Below are positions 46,649 through 64,000 of a stretch of DNA of 64,000 bases, in pieces (position 1 is the first letter of the stretch; the number at the start of each line of letters is the position of its first letter). Location: assembly GCA_018675335.1 (NCBI GenBank), contig JABGYH010000004.1, forward strand, positions 1-64,000. Reading direction: 5' to 3'. The DNA comes from Candidatus Woesearchaeota archaeon (GTDB lineage Archaea; Nanobdellota; Nanobdellia; Woesearchaeales; UBA11576). A program made the position numbers and the translations under genes. The notes beneath the pieces are model-generated. The model was not told the DNA's origin. It made no database searches and saw nothing but the letters and a program-made list of their open reading frames with translations.

Positions 46649-47548
46649 ATGACCCTCACAGATAAACTAAGAACAAATATGAAATGGCTCGTATTAGCAG
46701 GAGCTTTAGCAACTACCCCATTTATTTACAAATATTTGACTTCAGAACCTTTCGAAAGAACAGGCCAACAAACTAGCAAAGGATACGAATATTTCGAATA
46801 CTCAGGAAAATTACCAACCCCAAAAACTCAAGAAGGCAAATTAGCAATTGCGGATGAATTTGACGCCTGGGACTCCAAAAAAGGAAATAATTGCAAAAAT
46901 ACTGGCTGGTCAAATGTTAGAGTAAGAAAAGGAAAAACATACGTTGTAGCAGGATGTGATTTTCCTGCTGACGAACCAGACCCAGAACCTCAACCAAGCA
47001 GTGCAGACTATACTAAAATAAATTATGACGATCCTAAACTAAAAAGCAAAATAAATGCAGAAACATTTGAACCCGAATTTCTTTCAGACTTAGAAAAAAT
47101 GTGTGAAAGACTTGACATGAATGCAATGGGCTTAATCTCAGTAATGGATTTTGAAACTGGCGGAACATTCAGTCCCAAAAAAAAGAATCCCAAAGGTAGT
47201 GCTACAGGACTCATCCAATTTATTTCTAGAACTGCTAGATCACTTGGAACAACAACAAAACAATTAAGAAAAATGACTCAACGCCAACAATTAAAATATG
47301 TTGAGAAATATTTTAAAAGAAATAGTAAAAAACAAACAGATTATGCAAATCCAGTAGATATAGCCCTAACAATATTCTATCCTGCAGCAGTCGGAAAAGG
47401 AGATTGGCACGTAATTGCAAGAAGAGGTTCAAAAGCATATAGGCAAAATGCAGGACTGGATAAACACCCAAAGGATGGTAAAATAACTGCAATAGAATAC
47501 ACTCGAAATGCACTAAATAGAGGATATACCAGCCCATTTTTAGAATAA
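46649..47548 (+). CDS. Membrane-anchored lytic transglycosylase/lysozyme-like protein
   Basis: 299 aa. An N-terminal hydrophobic anchor (about 11-30), then an extracellular low-complexity and proline/glutamate-rich stalk, with two Cys near 81 and 103. The C-terminal domain (about 135-285) has the phage-type transglycosylase pattern: ISVMDFETGGTFSPKKKN with catalytic Glu169, GSATGLIQFISRTARSLGTT, and an MTQRQQLKYVEKYF helix. Such domains cleave peptidoglycan glycan strands. The host should have no peptidoglycan, so the target may be bacterial cells or another polysaccharide. No weighty promoter seen. Confidence 0.72.
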   Translation: MTLTDKLRTNMKWLVLAGALATTPFIYKYLTSEPFERTGQQTSKGYEYFEYSGKLPTPKTQEGKLAIADEFDAWDSKKGNNCKNTGWSNVRVRKGKTYVVAGCDFPADEPDPEPQPSSADYTKINYDDPKLKSKINAETFEPEFLSDLEKMCERLDMNAMGLISVMDFETGGTFSPKKKNPKGSATGLIQFISRTARSLGTTTKQLRKMTQRQQLKYVEKYFKRNSKKQTDYANPVDIALTIFYPAAVGKGDWHVIARRGSKAYRQNAGLDKHPKDGKITAIEYTRNALNRGYTSPFLE

Positions 47549-49602: not shown

Positions 49603-50076
49603 TTATGCATTTTTATTTTTCTCACACATAACATAATTTGCTTTAGCATCATTTACAAAAGCATATGCAAACAATAAACTTACAATACCCAAAAAAGAAG
49701 ACGCCATTCCTCGCTCACCCGCAGTTTCAATTAAAGAAGTCAATTTAGCAGAATAGAAATCAATAACTTTTTGCTGTTGAAAAGGATAATACTTATCAAA
49801 ACGCGCCAATTCTGAATCTAGAGAATCACCCATTCCTTTAAGCTGTTGTTCAAATGAAGAGTTCATAGCATTTCGATTTAAATTTTGACTTAAATAATGC
49901 ATCGCACCATAAGGATTTTCTCTTGCTTGGTCAACAAAAATATATCTTTGTTCTTGTAAGTCATTAATTTTTATTCCAAAATCTATTGTCTTCGCAGTTT
50001 CCAAAGCACAAATCCCGCCCGAACCTAATCCTATTAAAGCAGATACGATCATCCCAGTTTTAGTTGATTTTGTCAT
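49603..50076 (-). CDS. Two-helix membrane protein, paralogue of the upstream gene
   Basis: 157 aa. Hydrophobic segments at about 8-27 and 122-142 flank a 95-residue helical loop with ARENPYGAMHYLSQNL and SSFEQQLKGMGDSLD. The same motifs appear in the gene directly upstream (ARENSYDALKYLSQNL and HSFVEQQLIGVNYSLD). The ATG abuts the upstream stop (TAA-ATG), with GGTGAA nine bases before it, so the two are co-translated and may form a heteromer. Function unknown. Confidence 0.7.
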   Translation of the reverse strand: MTKSTKTGMIVSALIGLGSGGICALETAKTIDFGIKINDLQEQRYIFVDQARENPYGAMHYLSQNLNRNAMNSSFEQQLKGMGDSLDSELARFDKYYPFQQQKVIDFYSAKLTSLIETAGERGMASSFLGIVSLLFAYAFVNDAKANYVMCEKNKNA

Positions 50077-50574
50077 TTAGTTTTCACCATCTTGTTCTTT
50101 AATATTTTCTTCCCCTGATTTTTTAGCACCAGAACTCACGCTTACACCACCAAAAATCATCGTAGAAATAATCAAACAAACAAACCCTGCAGATACAGTT
50201 CTTCCTTGCCAATAATTCGCATCATTCATTAATTCGGAAATCTTATTAGAATAAAAATTTGCAAGTCTTCTTTGTTGAAATCCAGAATATTGATCTGCAG
50301 TTTCTAAATGACGATCTAAAGAATAATTAACTCCAATAAGTTGTTGCTCGACAAATGAATGTGAACAAGTATCTTCTAAATTTTGACTTAAATATTTTAA
50401 CGCATCATAAGAATTTTCCCTAGCAATATCTTCATAGAAATGTTTTTGTTCATTTAACACGCCACTTAAATTTGCTAAATCATATGAATCTGCAAGACAT
50501 TTAACTCCAACACCGCCCGATGCCAATCCTGCAATAAATCCCATAATTGTTGCTGCTTTTCTCGTATTAATCAT
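50077..50574 (-). CDS. Two-helix membrane protein, first of a paralogous pair
   Basis: 165 aa. The layout matches the next gene: hydrophobic N-terminal segment (about 8-28), helical loop with the ARENSYDALKYLSQNL motif, second hydrophobic segment (about 125-147), then a charged tail (KKSGEENIKEQDGEN). The loop cysteine (DTCSH) is not shared. No family recognised. The start has only a weak GAGTGG element. Confidence 0.7.
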   Translation of the reverse strand: MINTRKAATIMGFIAGLASGGVGVKCLADSYDLANLSGVLNEQKHFYEDIARENSYDALKYLSQNLEDTCSHSFVEQQLIGVNYSLDRHLETADQYSGFQQRRLANFYSNKISELMNDANYWQGRTVSAGFVCLIISTMIFGGVSVSSGAKKSGEENIKEQDGEN

Positions 50575-50699
50575 TTATCTCAACCACTCCAAACATATTT
50601 TGATTACGAATAAGAAGTGACAAATGCTATTATTTATGAATTATTTATAGAAATTATAGAATTAAATTGAATATGTCAAATATAAAACAATATAAAAAA

Positions 50700-50738
50700 A
50701 ATTAAAGAAAGTAAAAAAAGTAAAAAAAGTAAAAAAAA
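50700..50738 (-). terminator. Tandem T-run terminator after the 176-aa gene
   Basis: On the minus strand, T7-10 runs are repeated three times at about 8-bp spacing (unit TTTTTTTAC) directly after the stop codon. This is a clear oligo-T terminator array. Confidence 0.6.
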
Positions 50739-50740
50739 AA

Positions 50741-51271
50741 TTAATCTGCAAAACCAAAAAGCTTCTTCACTTTGTAACCAAGTTTACTTTTTCTTTTTGC
50801 TTCTTCTGCTTTCATTTGATCATACTTAACTAAAACTTGTTTGAATGCATCTAAATCTAACCTTACAGTCGGACTTCCTTGTTTTTCCCAACGCTCAACA
50901 TCATACCTATGACCAACGCCAAATGAAAAAGGAACATACCCACTCCCAAGAGTTTTTGATTCAATAGTTTCTCCATTAACAACAACAGTTTCTGGCAAAT
51001 GCCCTCGAGTATTTCTACCTTCAAGCAACTTTTCAAGTTCAAGACCTTTTCCTGCATAAGGATTCAATTTACCCCACCCCTCTCCAATTTGGTGCGCAGG
51101 TAAATTACTTTGCGATCTTCCCAGATAAAACAAAAAAGGTTTTCCCCTTTGAGTTGGATCGTCCATTTCTAAAATTTCAGGATTGCAAACATAAACTGCT
51201 GCAACATTATTATTATATCCTTGAATAAAATCAAGCACAGGTTTTTCTTCTTTTTTCTTACTTAATCCCAT
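50741..51271 (-). CDS. Hypothetical soluble protein, 176 aa, weakly related to its upstream neighbour
   Basis: Basic termini and a middle with VAAVYVCNPEILEM, then FLFYLGRSQS. The neighbour at 51277 has VSAMYVVEPGYSL and CTLFLGEKDD at the same place, so the two share a small core domain; here it lacks a signal anchor. C-terminal helix with KAEEAKRKSKLGYKVKKLFGF. Shine-Dalgarno GAGGTAA precedes the ATG. Function unknown. Confidence 0.62.
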   Translation of the reverse strand: MGLSKKKEEKPVLDFIQGYNNNVAAVYVCNPEILEMDDPTQRGKPFLFYLGRSQSNLPAHQIGEGWGKLNPYAGKGLELEKLLEGRNTRGHLPETVVVNGETIESKTLGSGYVPFSFGVGHRYDVERWEKQGSPTVRLDLDAFKQVLVKYDQMKAEEAKRKSKLGYKVKKLFGFAD

Positions 51272-51276
51272 TTTTA

Positions 51277-51696
51277 TTACCTCACATATTTTACTTCCTC
51301 AAGAATTTCTTTTCTGAGTTTTTGTTTGTTTAGTTCACTGTCGGGATCAACCATTTTGCTTGTTGCCTCATCTAATAACATATCAAATTTAGAAGTTAAA
51401 TCTGCACGTTCAAGATCTTCTCGAGTTCTATTGTTAACTCCGTCAGCAGTATTATTACAATAGTCATCAATAATTCTAACTCGATCATCTTTCTCTCCAA
51501 GAAATAATGTACACCTATCTGCACCAGGCAAAGAATATCCTGGCTCCACAACATACATTGCAGAAACTCCATTAATTTTTCCAGCATATTTTCCTTGATC
51601 AAATTCTGAACTAACTGCATTTTTGTAAAGAAATCCTGCCACAGTAACTCCTGCAGCAACAATTCCTGCGATTATCCATTTACTAGCTTTATTCAA
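51277..51696 (-). CDS. Membrane-anchored hypothetical protein, 139 aa
   Basis: An N-terminal transmembrane anchor (WIIAGIVAAGVTVAGFLY) precedes a domain with GVSAMYVVEPGYS, two Cys (DRCTLF and DYCNN), and a charged helical C-terminus. The start is TTG 51696, four bases after GGTGAT, the same arrangement as the beta-helix gene at 1155. The next gene starts six bases after its stop and carries a related core, so these form a two-gene operon. Function unknown. Confidence 0.65.
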   Translation of the reverse strand: MNKASKWIIAGIVAAGVTVAGFLYKNAVSSEFDQGKYAGKINGVSAMYVVEPGYSLPGADRCTLFLGEKDDRVRIIDDYCNNTADGVNNRTREDLERADLTSKFDMLLDEATSKMVDPDSELNKQKLRKEILEEVKYVR

Positions 51697-54131: not shown

Positions 54132-54689
54132 ATGTCCAAATTTAAAAATATGCAAGACACACAACTACTCCCAACAAGAATTGATCCGAAATATATAATC
54201 CCATTCACAGGATATCCAGTAATTATCACTCAAGGATATAATGGACCATATAGTCACAAAGGAAGAGAAATTAATGGGAGAATTAGACGTAATGATTGTT
54301 ACAGCATAGACTTCGCACTCCCACTAGAAACCACAATTATTGCCTCAAGAGCAGGAATAGTTAATTTAGTTGAAACGTTTTTTGATGAGTGTTATTTAGG
54401 TTTAAATCCTAATAAAGGACGAGTATCAACAAATTTTATCACAATTGATCACTTAGATGGAACTGGTGCGATTTATGCACATTTAGAAAAACAAGGAGAG
54501 TTAGTACAACGTAAACAATTTGTAGAACAAGGACAACCAATTGCAATAACAGGACTTAGTGGTTGGATTGGCCCAATACCTCACCTACATTTTGCAGTGT
54601 TTAAAAAACGAAAAACCAGACGAACTACAGTTCCAATCAATTTTGAAAATTACCACGGACCACTCGAACATTCAACATTAATGAGTTAA
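54132..54689 (+). CDS. M23-family (LytM-like) metallopeptidase domain protein
   Basis: 185 aa. Zinc-site pattern: His42 (PYSHKG), Asp60 (YSIDFALP), His117 (YAHLEK), and HLHFAV with His151 and His153. The spacing between His42 and Asp60 is longer than in most M23 proteins. There is no signal peptide or anchor; the first 20 residues are polar, so export must be by another route or it acts in the cytoplasm. M23 enzymes usually cut peptidoglycan cross-links, which archaea lack. Confidence 0.78.
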   Translation: MSKFKNMQDTQLLPTRIDPKYIIPFTGYPVIITQGYNGPYSHKGREINGRIRRNDCYSIDFALPLETTIIASRAGIVNLVETFFDECYLGLNPNKGRVSTNFITIDHLDGTGAIYAHLEKQGELVQRKQFVEQGQPIAITGLSGWIGPIPHLHFAVFKKRKTRRTTVPINFENYHGPLEHSTLMS

Positions 54690-60512: not shown

Positions 60513-63500
60513 TTAGTCTTCTTTTCGTCTAATGATTACAAATCCACCAACAGTTAATGCAAGTAAAAGCATAATTGCATAATCTGAAAATTCTGGAACT
60601 GCCTCACCTTGACCACCAAACTCAGTTTCAATTAACGCATCATCAGTAGCATTCAATTGAGTATAAGCAGTAGCAGTACAATTAATTGTAAAATCATACA
60701 AATTCGCACTACTAAACCCTGACGTTGAAGTATAATTCCAAGTGTTATCCCCTGACGAGTTAAATGTCATGTTAGTATCAGTAACTGATAAATCTGCAAC
60801 AGTAATCCTACACTCAGCATCATCAGTTGCAGGAGTCAAAGTTGTATTATCACTAGTTTTTGAATAGTTAGCATAAAAAACAACTGCACCATCAACATAA
60901 ACCGATTCCGAATCAGACGTATCTGAAATTTCCAACTGAGAATTCTCCCCCGCAACATAAGTTGAGAATCCCATTTCAGGAGGAATAGTAATGGCAACAT
61001 GAGTTGAATTATATTCTGCACAATCAATTGCATCAGTTACATCACTACAATTAGCACCATCATCCGAACAACGCTCAATTGACTCACAACTATCTCCAGG
61101 AATATAACAATCAACACTTCCAATCGAAAACTCTTGAAACATTTCTTGCCAAACAGCAGATTGAATACCAACACACTCTTGTCCCGCATAATAACAAGAC
61201 TCCCCAGTTGTAAACGCATCACTAAAATTAACAGTAGTTGAATGAGTTATATCAATGTCACCAAATTCGCAGGCCAATCCAGTCGCAGATGAGTTCAATA
61301 TAAAACTTGCATTTTTTTGAACACCAGTGGATACACCCGTAGACGAATTATATTCCTCATAATCACCCGTACTCGTTTTCCACTGAATAAAATCTGCTTC
61401 TTCACCTTCAAAAGATACCATAAAATTCTGCGAAGTTTTCTTAGTCGTAAAATTCAAACACGCTGTTTGATAACCTAAACCAGCCATATCAGTCACATTT
61501 AATTCATAAAAATAAGTAGTTGCAGCAGTTAAATTAAATCCTAATGAATCATCCCACTGATCTAAAGGAAAACTATGAAACAACTTATAATCATCCAAAT
61601 CATAATATGGATCGTTATAACTATCCAAACTAGAGTTCAATGTAGTACAAGTAGAATCATTAAGATAAAACGTCAATGTTGCATTAGTAGGCTCAGTCGT
61701 CATAAAATCAATAAATGCAGCAATTGAATCTAAATGCTTCGAAATATCCCTAATTGAGGGAGCATCAGAATCTGATTCTGAGTTATAAGCATCTTTACAT
61801 TCCCACGCCCATAAACAATCAGGATCATCACAATCCGCAAACCCATCGTAATCATCATCATAATTATTAAAACAAAATGATTCAAAACTACAATGTCCCC
61901 CTGCGCATCCAGAATCGCATTGATCAGGATTCATATCACAATCAATAGGAACTACATCTTCCCACATATCTGTACCCGCATTCCAAGACCCAGTCGTGTG
62001 ATGAACAAACGTATCCCAATTTTCATGACAAAAACCACCTTCAGGCAGCCAAGCATCAGATTCCCATTGACAATCTTTACTACTGCTACCACAGTCAGGA
62101 GAAGTAGTACAAAAATCACAAATGTCATCACAACCAAAAGCATCATCACTAAAATGACAAGTATTTGACCAAGTATCATACTCGCAACCCATAGCTAAAC
62201 ATGCAGATTCTTCACCGTAAAAAAATCCACAACCCGCAGTTCCAGCAATATTAGTACATTCAGGAATAACTGAACACTCAGGATCCGCACAATCTATAAA
62301 ACCATTACCGTTATTATCAGCACCATCAAAACAATCTATCTCAGTTGAATCACACACATAAAAACCATAAAATCCCCCTGGAGCTTCCTGTCCATGACAT
62401 TGAGTATCCTCACAATCAGTACCAAAAAAACCATCATCATCAATACCATTACCACAGATTTCTCCAACAGGACCTTCACTTGATTCAGCAACTGATGCTT
62501 CAAACTTTTTTAATATCCAATCTTCAGAATCTACTTCATCAGTAGAAGAACCTGCAACATATAAATCTCCTTCATTACCTTTAACAACTGAATATGCAAT
62601 ATCGACCATACGAATTCCAATAGTAGTATTCCAAGCAGAACTATCTTCAGTACCGGTATCATCAAACTTTTTAATTTTCATGTCTTCCATACCCAAATAT
62701 CCAGTTTGACCTACAACAAAAACGTCACCATTTTCGTCAATGTAAATTGATCTTGCCCTACCACTTTCACCTTCATCTAAAGTTTTGTTCCAACCAGATA
62801 TGGTTCCAGATTCAATACCTTCAGAGGAATATTTTTTAATAATCCAGTCATAATCCATACTATCATCAAATGCTCCGTAACCTACAACAAATATATCTCC
62901 GGAGTCATCAACTTCAACACCGTAAGCTTCAGAATCATAAGATTGTGTTGGATGAGATCTAATTATTTTATTCCAATTAATTGTATCTTCTACTCCTGAA
63001 CTATCAAATTTCTTAAGCCACCACATGGCCATGCCATCATAAGCTTTTCCGACAACATAAATATTTCCGGAAATATCTGAAGTTAAATCGTACGGAGCAT
63101 CAGAATCTCCAGCATAATCAAAAACAACATCAAGATAATTAGTAGTACAAGTACTTCCTTGATCTAAACTTCCACATTCGGAAAGACTACTCCCTCCAAA
63201 ATCAAGTTCGTTACCACCAGAATCAAATTTCTTAATCCACCAATCACTAGCGGTTGAAAATCCTACCTTATTAACTAAATTTTCTCCTCTACCAAGAACA
63301 TAAATATTTCCAAAGTCATCTATTTCAATACCCATTGCAGAATCATAAGAAAAACCATCAGAACTATAACATTGATTCCAATCCCTAGTATCTTCAACAC
63401 CTACAGAATTATACTTTTTAATCATCCAATCAAAACTACTCGTACCAGTAACACAATTCCTTGCACTGCCAACTACAAATACACTTCCGGAAGAATCAAT

Positions 63501-64000
63501 AGCCGCATCATACGCAATAGTTCCTTCTGAAATTTGTTTATCCCAATATATAGTATCTTCAGTTCCATCAGAACCGAATTTTTTTATTATCCAATCCCAA
63601 TTGTCTCCACCTTGACCTACAACATAAATGTTATTTTCCCCATCAACAGTCATAGCATAAGGAATATCATTTGGACCAATATCAATAGTTTTATTCCAAC
63701 CAGCATCAACTCCAAATTCAACTCCTTCTTCAGGACTTTCAGAAGAACTTGATTCTCCTCCTGCAGCATCTAATTCTTCCTGACCTGAAAAGAAAAAATC
63801 ATAAGTAAAATCAAAAATTGAGTCAGGATCAAAATATACTGCATGCGACAAACAAGAGTCCCACACATACCCAGTCATTTCACCATAACACATACAATCA
63901 GTACTACTTACAGTACCACCATTACGATTATAACTTGGACAAGTAATTTCTTTACTTTTAAGTTCAGGATCATAATAATCTAGATGATAAATAGCACAAC
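60513..64000 (-). CDS. Giant secreted beta-propeller protein with PEF-CTERM-like tail (5' end outside window)
   Basis: The minus-strand frame is open from the right window edge to TAA at 60513, so the true start lies beyond 64000; at least 1161 codons are present. Seven repeats of about 50-70 residues (NKTI, GNIYVVG, DWWIKKF, ED) predict a seven-bladed propeller. Then come Cys/Asp-rich calcium-type motifs (CGNGIDDDG, CFDGADNNGNGFIDCADPEC, DDDYDGFADCDDPDC), Ig-like segments (TTEPTNATLTFYLNDS), and the tail VPEFSDYAIMLLLALTVGG followed by RRKED. The PEF motif, hydrophobic helix and basic end resemble archaeosortase substrates; no archaeosortase is seen here. Confidence 0.85.
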   Translation of the reverse strand, partial: CAIYHLDYYDPELKSKEITCPSYNRNGGTVSSTDCMCYGEMTGYVWDSCLSHAVYFDPDSIFDFTYDFFFSGQEELDAAGGESSSSESPEEGVEFGVDAGWNKTIDIGPNDIPYAMTVDGENNIYVVGQGGDNWDWIIKKFGSDGTEDTIYWDKQISEGTIAYDAAIDSSGSVFVVGSARNCVTGTSSFDWMIKKYNSVGVEDTRDWNQCYSSDGFSYDSAMGIEIDDFGNIYVLGRGENLVNKVGFSTASDWWIKKFDSGGNELDFGGSSLSECGSLDQGSTCTTNYLDVVFDYAGDSDAPYDLTSDISGNIYVVGKAYDGMAMWWLKKFDSSGVEDTINWNKIIRSHPTQSYDSEAYGVEVDDSGDIFVVGYGAFDDSMDYDWIIKKYSSEGIESGTISGWNKTLDEGESGRARSIYIDENGDVFVVGQTGYLGMEDMKIKKFDDTGTEDSSAWNTTIGIRMVDIAYSVVKGNEGDLYVAGSSTDEVDSEDWILKKFEASVAESSEGPVGEICGNGIDDDGFFGTDCEDTQCHGQEAPGGFYGFYVCDSTEIDCFDGADNNGNGFIDCADPECSVIPECTNIAGTAGCGFFYGEESACLAMGCEYDTWSNTCHFSDDAFGCDDICDFCTTSPDCGSSSKDCQWESDAWLPEGGFCHENWDTFVHHTTGSWNAGTDMWEDVVPIDCDMNPDQCDSGCAGGHCSFESFCFNNYDDDYDGFADCDDPDCLWAWECKDAYNSESDSDAPSIRDISKHLDSIAAFIDFMTTEPTNATLTFYLNDSTCTTLNSSLDSYNDPYYDLDDYKLFHSFPLDQWDDSLGFNLTAATTYFYELNVTDMAGLGYQTACLNFTTKKTSQNFMVSFEGEEADFIQWKTSTGDYEEYNSSTGVSTGVQKNASFILNSSATGLACEFGDIDITHSTTVNFSDAFTTGESCYYAGQECVGIQSAVWQEMFQEFSIGSVDCYIPGDSCESIERCSDDGANCSDVTDAIDCAEYNSTHVAITIPPEMGFSTYVAGENSQLEISDTSDSESVYVDGAVVFYANYSKTSDNTTLTPATDDAECRITVADLSVTDTNMTFNSSGDNTWNYTSTSGFSSANLYDFTINCTATAYTQLNATDDALIETEFGGQGEAVPEFSDYAIMLLLALTVGGFVIIRRKED

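Follow-up and report, generated by a model that had tools for sequence, protein, structure and literature searches.

Why would an archaeon in which no peptidoglycan synthesis is found carry a gene for an enzyme predicted to cut peptidoglycan? The question is raised by one gene in a 64,000-nucleotide stretch of contig JABGYH010000004.1 (assembly GCA_018675335.1) from a Candidatus Woesearchaeota archaeon; we refer to this whole stretch as the window and to the gene product as the window protein. A preliminary description of the DNA had read the product as a phage-type transglycosylase with a catalytic glutamate, displayed outside a peptidoglycan-free cell by an N-terminal anchor and stalk and perhaps aimed at bacteria. 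The open reading frame proved to be real, with an ATG start and 299 codons (Table 1). We consider it fairly probable, judging from sequence, that it encodes a tethered, phage-derived transglycosylase of small-genome archaea, used at contact range to attack or dock to bacteria.

Table 1. Features of the transglycosylase gene and its product (window coordinates; residues are those of the window protein)
Feature	Coordinates	Strand	Basis
Whole gene; lytic transglycosylase of phage type, probably tethered to the membrane	46649..47548	+	ATG ORF, 299 aa
Probable N-terminal signal-anchor, residues 12-30	46682..46738	+	Hydrophobic stretch preceded by a positively charged N side
Small stalk domain, residues 34-105	46748..46963	+	Cys82/Cys103 pair; model secondary structure; alignment
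Linker with DYTxINY motif, residues 115-137	46991..47059	+	Common to archaeal clade
Lytic transglycosylase domain, phage type (predicted), residues 130-295	47036..47533	+	PHROG, PDB and fold matches
Glu169 codon, predicted catalytic acid	47153..47155	+	Invariant in 63 rows; aligned with MltC Glu
SATGLIQF, residues 184-191, counterpart of the lytic transglycosylase GLMQ motif	47198..47221	+	Alignment and profile
EF-hand-like loop, residues 271-283	47459..47497	+	Profile positions 139-160 match EF-hand proteins, E 0.008 and weaker

The C-terminal domain is of the phage lytic transglycosylase type

Searches of the PHROGs collection matched the C-terminal domain, over its whole length, to phrog_4928 (E 2.1e-38) and to the baseplate hub family phrog_196 (E 8.1e-34), and phmmer matched the protein to PDB entry 9udh, a phage 'lytic transglycosidase', with an E value of 1.7e-33. 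By tblastn, 293 of 50,697 phage records matched the window protein, the top-ranked being Pantoea phage AAM22 at 47% identity, and a profile scan confirmed at least 573 relatives on viral contigs. These matches, with up to 47% identity to phage enzymes, bear out the initial assignment to the phage type. No Pfam family reached its curated cut-off: Phage_lysozyme2 (PF18013) scored 17.5 of 28.2 bits and SLT (PF01464) 13.5 of 21.3 bits. NCBIfam gave the protein no significant name.

The window protein was aligned with 60 viral and 2 bacterial sequences after removal of near duplicates (21 of 83 loci). One locus in which stops break the frame (L004), two near copies of L007 (L008 and L009) and one on the same contig as L002 (L028) were left out of the counts. 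Residues E169, A185, G187, L188, Q190, F191, Q214, V218 and N267 are invariant in all 63 rows. A profile built from this alignment places E169 on the column of the MltC-type glutamate, which is Q in the MltC variant 4cfo; we take this glutamate to be the catalytic acid and the Q form to be an inactive mutant. The preliminary description had named Glu169 as catalytic and SATGLIQF as the core motif. Both are present, at residues 169 and 184-191, and the conservation and column position of the glutamate agree with the role proposed for it.

In an AlphaFold2 model of the protein, residues 141-290 have a pLDDT of about 90, and the values for the remaining blocks range from 43 to 80. In fold comparison this model was closest to 9udh (Z 18.4, rmsd 2.8 A, 150 aligned residues, 45% identity), and next came phiKZ gp144, Slt70 and further transglycosylases (Z 8-9). 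Among 403 Foldseek matches to PDB entries, 9udh alone fell below E 0.001. The comparison with lysozymes proposed at the outset thus yielded a high-confidence lysozyme-type fold, and the structural refutation envisaged there did not occur. Most archaeal relatives have a canonical form of the EF-hand-like loop near the C terminus; that of the window protein has one residue more. Collectively, we conclude that the C-terminal domain is a phage-type lytic transglycosylase, with predicted activity.

The gene resides in an archaeal genome with no peptidoglycan synthesis found

The genome that contains the window is 1.71 Mb in 9 contigs and 97% complete, and genomes listed from its phylum range from 0.6 to 2.3 Mb. 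Its SSU rRNA is archaeal (1433 bits), in line with the host first supposed, and archaeal-type S12 and S7 are encoded in the same 64 kb as the transglycosylase gene. The gene is flanked by uvrB and a DEAD-box helicase gene (named by eye), and its GC and GC3 are close to those of neighbouring genes. A provirus origin was rejected, as no phage-like genes were seen beside it. The copy in the sole other genome of the genus (G001) lies on a 160-kb contig that also carries archaeal-type S12 and S7. Since a second genome of the genus holds the gene next to archaeal ribosomal genes, we conclude that it is no contaminant.

Neither the transpeptidase domain (PF00905) nor the Mur ligase domain (PF08245) was found in this 97% complete genome, which upholds the earlier claim of a peptidoglycan-free host; a match to the SLT family was likewise absent from it at E 1e-3. 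Among 16 archaeal genomes bearing the transglycosylase, 15 are without a transpeptidase. The exception, G514, has its transpeptidase match on a contig of 4.5 kb, next to a MurE-like ORF, and we judge this match to be probably foreign to that genome. Remodelling of the archaeon's own wall was rejected on these grounds, namely that no peptidoglycan synthesis was found in its genome and that 15 of the 16 bearers are without a transpeptidase.

Other genes of the window and genome touch on the cell surface or the wall. At 54132-54689 (+), 7 kb from the transglycosylase gene, an ORF encodes a peptidase domain of the M23 (LytM) type (E 2.5e-14), and a second M23 peptidase lies elsewhere in the genome (G000:C8:37776-38069). 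No obvious export signal was seen in either of these two proteins, a point against the reading of the transglycosylase as a surface tool aimed at bacteria. Four consecutive small ORFs occupy 49603-51696 (-); at least three have an N-terminal hydrophobic stretch, two look paralogous by eye, and none matched a Pfam family above cut-off. The product of 60513-63893 (-) is a large protein that combines SBBP beta-propeller repeats with an anchor-like C-terminal end. OmpA-domain matches were recorded in two further large proteins of the genome, L014 (G000:C7:46496-49717) and L015 (G000:C7:60819-64028), both with hydrophobic segments; the match is above the Pfam cut-off in one and below it in the other.

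Archaeal relatives are patchily distributed and include a well-supported clade

The preliminary description had proposed a search of other DPANN genomes. Relatives were found in further small-genome archaea, and the window protein is not a singleton. Of 59 near genomes, two have the gene, namely the window's own and the sole same-genus genome; among the ten genomes listed from its family (f1), it occurs only in these two members of the genus. Across the phylum, 18 of 371 genomes matched at the E 1e-3 level, and 11 of these, own included, did so strongly. The seven weak matches (E 1e-5 to 1e-3) were left out of the family, and the four of them that were read (L108, L109, L111 and L113) have an ordinary SLT-type look. 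Within the order, a profile built from six archaeal members matched 14 of 352 genomes, and 10 of the 49 genomes of another family (f54) gave a match. This patchy distribution counts against the simple picture of a domesticated wall cutter.

In the phylogenetic trees, the window protein falls in a clade with sequences from G001, G108, G091, G101, G116 and G460 (support 100/98), that is, seven genomes of six genera, the window and G001 sharing one genus. Its sister is a GDSL-type group (G126, G452 and G463), all ten sequences joining at 97/86. Within the clade, the window protein branches with G116, which belongs to a different family (98/90), and apart from the same-genus G001, an arrangement that argues against simple descent. 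A first tree of 74 rows needs three changes of the archaeal label, at least two of them forced; with four more archaeal rows, two changes are needed, at least one forced. When G250 is set aside, 15 archaeal rows lie on one side with support of 64/81, so that a single origin is neither supported nor rejected.

The sequence from G250 was rejected as support, as its contig is 4.5 kb long and it falls among phage or bacterial rows in the first tree. It is an ORF (L116, G250:C66) that combines eCIS_core, LysM and transglycosylase domains on a contig binned as archaeal, and is possibly the cargo of a contractile injection system or a contaminant.

The phage-type sequence and the patchy distribution are also what one would see if the gene were a recent, functionless phage-gene capture, a contaminant or a misassembly. 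We regard this as highly improbable, given that six archaeal genera (seven genomes) are united in one clade at 100/98, that the glutamate, the motifs and the DYTxINY linker are conserved, and that the contigs look archaeal, with GC3 like that of neighbouring genes.

The N-terminal part may tether the enzyme

As to the proposed display of the enzyme by an N-terminal anchor and stalk, a small domain was modelled in the place of the stalk, and the anchor is marginal by hydropathy, with a best 19-residue Kyte-Doolittle mean of 1.09 at residue 14. No lipobox was found at the N terminus of the window protein. The model has helices at residues 2-21 and 23-30, and an N-terminal anchor is plausible but weak. 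Residues 35-103 were modelled as a beta-beta-alpha-beta-beta domain with a pLDDT of about 75; folded alone and without an alignment, the stalk gave a poor model (mean pLDDT 58). An FDAWD..KGN.C.NTG...C element that includes both cysteines recurs in the relative from G116, and the cysteine pair is absent from the same-genus relative. In the linker, Y121 and T122 are invariant in 6 rows, namely the six of the seven clade members that were aligned at full length.

The N-terminal types of the relatives were assigned by visual inspection and not with a predictor. Lipobox-like N termini occur in G001, of the same genus, and G101 (LGAC and LLGC boxes), and signal-like ones in G116 and the GDSL group; several hydrophobic segments were seen in G108 and G091, and one in G460 and G514. 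In the window protein's own clade at least, a tether in place of release suggests that the enzyme may act at contact range.

Companion enzymes of the relatives fit bacterial peptidoglycan

Several relatives combine the transglycosylase domain with other enzymes. A 2,508-aa protein of G070 has a signal-like start, the transglycosylase domain and Amidase_3 (E 2e-41). In the GDSL-type group, G452 joins a weak GDSL-like match (E 0.0039) to the transglycosylase domain and Amidase_2 (E 1.3e-10), G463 a GDSL-like match below cut-off (E 1e-5) to the transglycosylase domain, and G126 a stretch that looks SGNH-like by eye; in G126, a gene for an M15 D-Ala-D-Ala carboxypeptidase (E 6e-21) adjoins the transglycosylase gene. 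The domain is accompanied by VWA in G135, and a gene next to that of G116 is weakly SLT-like (E 0.0022, below cut-off). The Pfam SLT cut-off is passed by the wider archaeal relatives G070, G126, G250, G452 and G514. In G001, an OmpA-domain, lipoprotein-like ORF (E 3.7e-9) with a VWA-like part adjoins the transglycosylase gene; its best NCBIfam match is the Pal family (E 3.7e-13, below that family's cut-off). This Pal/OmpA-like and VWA-like ORF lies at L005:172-1452 (-) on G001:C14.

It is the peptide portion of peptidoglycan that amidases and M15 peptidases attack. Because these partners target peptides that peptidoglycan has, the predicted substrate of the wider family is most likely bacterial peptidoglycan. 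Against this stands the finding that the companion enzymes sit in relatives, mostly outside the window protein's own clade; in the window protein itself no recognised wall-binding domain was found, nor was a companion enzyme found beside its gene.

Pilin-like small membrane protein genes were seen in runs around two transglycosylase genes, at L115:4845-16174 (G135) and L114:3757-6544 (G100).

Lysozyme-fold enzymes can cut GlcNAc polymers, and the enzyme could instead cut a glycan or chitin-like polymer of the archaeon's own surface, making room for pili or for secretion machines in the manner of certain specialised transglycosylases of bacteria. Such a role would suit the position of the gene amid pilin-like genes in G100 and G135 and beside one in G070 and G286 (by eye). 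The Amidase_2, Amidase_3 and M15 partners of the relatives fit the peptides of peptidoglycan instead, the motifs match those of murein-cutting enzymes and no peptidoglycan synthesis was found, so that we hold this role to be quite improbable.

A model for contact-range action on bacteria

The reading that we prefer, a tethered enzyme acting on bacteria, can be set out as follows. Small-genome archaea of one lineage, which we infer to be DPANN, would have adopted a transglycosylase of the kind found in phage tails and ejection proteins. The signal-anchor would tether the enzyme to the outer face of the archaeal membrane, and the short stalk, possibly disulfide-bonded, would keep it away from the cell surface. 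Glu169 would protonate the MurNAc-GlcNAc bond of bacterial peptidoglycan, leaving 1,6-anhydro-MurNAc ends. The cut in the glycan strands would be local and short-range, making a hole or soft spot in a touching bacterium much as a phage tail does. The enzyme would probably serve to reach into a bacterial partner or prey cell, whether for docking, feeding or local killing, and not to remodel the wall of the archaeon itself.

The same enzyme evidence would also serve a scavenger that trims dead cells or debris of peptidoglycan close to its surface for sugars and peptides, with no live contact, and the use of amino acids from the peptidoglycan of dead bacteria has been proposed for DPANN archaea, according to the available part of that paper (PMC11537232). 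A tether would restrict the reach of such an enzyme, and a lytic transglycosylase alone would yield anhydro-muropeptides that need further steps; we find scavenging unlikely.

Contact-range action on live bacteria may be part of a broader scheme, which we put forward tentatively and hold to be somewhat doubtful. The window protein would be a domesticated phage drill whose sister genes have been building multi-enzyme cassettes against the whole of peptidoglycan, their parts being a GDSL-like domain, the transglycosylase, an amidase, an M15 peptidase and a second SLT-like protein, and the archaea would be epibionts or predators of bacteria.

To our knowledge, hosts have been identified for only a minority of DPANN archaea. 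An enzyme that is conserved in a lineage and is best understood as acting on bacterial walls suggests that the partners or prey are bacteria; if this is true, these archaea would be epibionts or predators of bacteria, and not of other archaea alone. The companion enzymes of the relatives form a gene set to seek in other genomes.

Comparison with known systems

Wall-cutting enzymes of DPANN archaea, and the idea of a bacterial target, are already known. A literature search that was short on subscription papers and did not cover bioRxiv preprints returned no account of a compact transglycosylase of the phage type in DPANN archaea. As far as this search shows, what is new is a compact, probably anchored phage-type family with a linker of its own, its apparent spread over several archaeal genera, and the predicted companion enzymes beside or fused to it in relatives.

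In the accessible part of their paper, Strock et al. 2025 (PMC12352652) describe modular hydrolases, which they found in 175 of 3,706 archaeal genomes, and bacterial killing by two haloarchaeal enzymes. These, like the window protein as read here, are archaeal enzymes directed against bacterial peptidoglycan; two of them were tested, whereas the window protein is known from sequence. Their definition, as given there, combines a Pfam catalytic domain with a Pfam wall-binding domain, and the window protein has neither. With no Pfam domain above cut-off, it would be missed by a survey of this kind. Since the clade lies below Pfam and NCBIfam detection, surveys built on these libraries would undercount archaeal wall-cutting enzymes.

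Castelle et al. 2021, in the portion available, report large murein-like transglycosylases (fam00969) in Pacearchaeota and Woesearchaeota and propose bacterial hosts; Vigneron et al. 2022, likewise in the portion available, report GH23 enzymes and propose 'vampiristic' Woesearchaeota. Going by these portions, the window protein resembles the fam00969 and GH23 proteins in the kind of archaea, in being a predicted peptidoglycan cutter and in the bacterial target proposed. It differs in size, the fam00969 proteins reaching 3,000 aa against its 299 aa, in a comparison made by description. The proteins of G070 (2,508 aa) and G286 (2,102 aa) resemble the large DPANN type and carry a related domain; they too are set beside fam00969 by its description in that portion.

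The GH23/SLT enzymes of bacteria (Slt70, MltC and MltF) and phiKZ gp144 have a similar lysozyme-type fold and order of motifs, but the window protein is 8-16% identical to them and falls under the SLT cut-off. With the transglycosylases of phage virions (PHROG 4928/196 and 9udh) it has in common the domain, the catalytic glutamate, the GLIQF motif and the fold, and the best phage records, such as those of Pantoea phage AAM22 and Pseudomonas phages NP1 and PaMx25, are 37-47% identical to it. In phages the domain forms part of tape-measure-like, hub or small proteins with a role in infection, whereas the window protein is encoded by a cellular gene, has a probable anchor, a stalk and the DYTxINY linker, and clusters with archaeal sequences.
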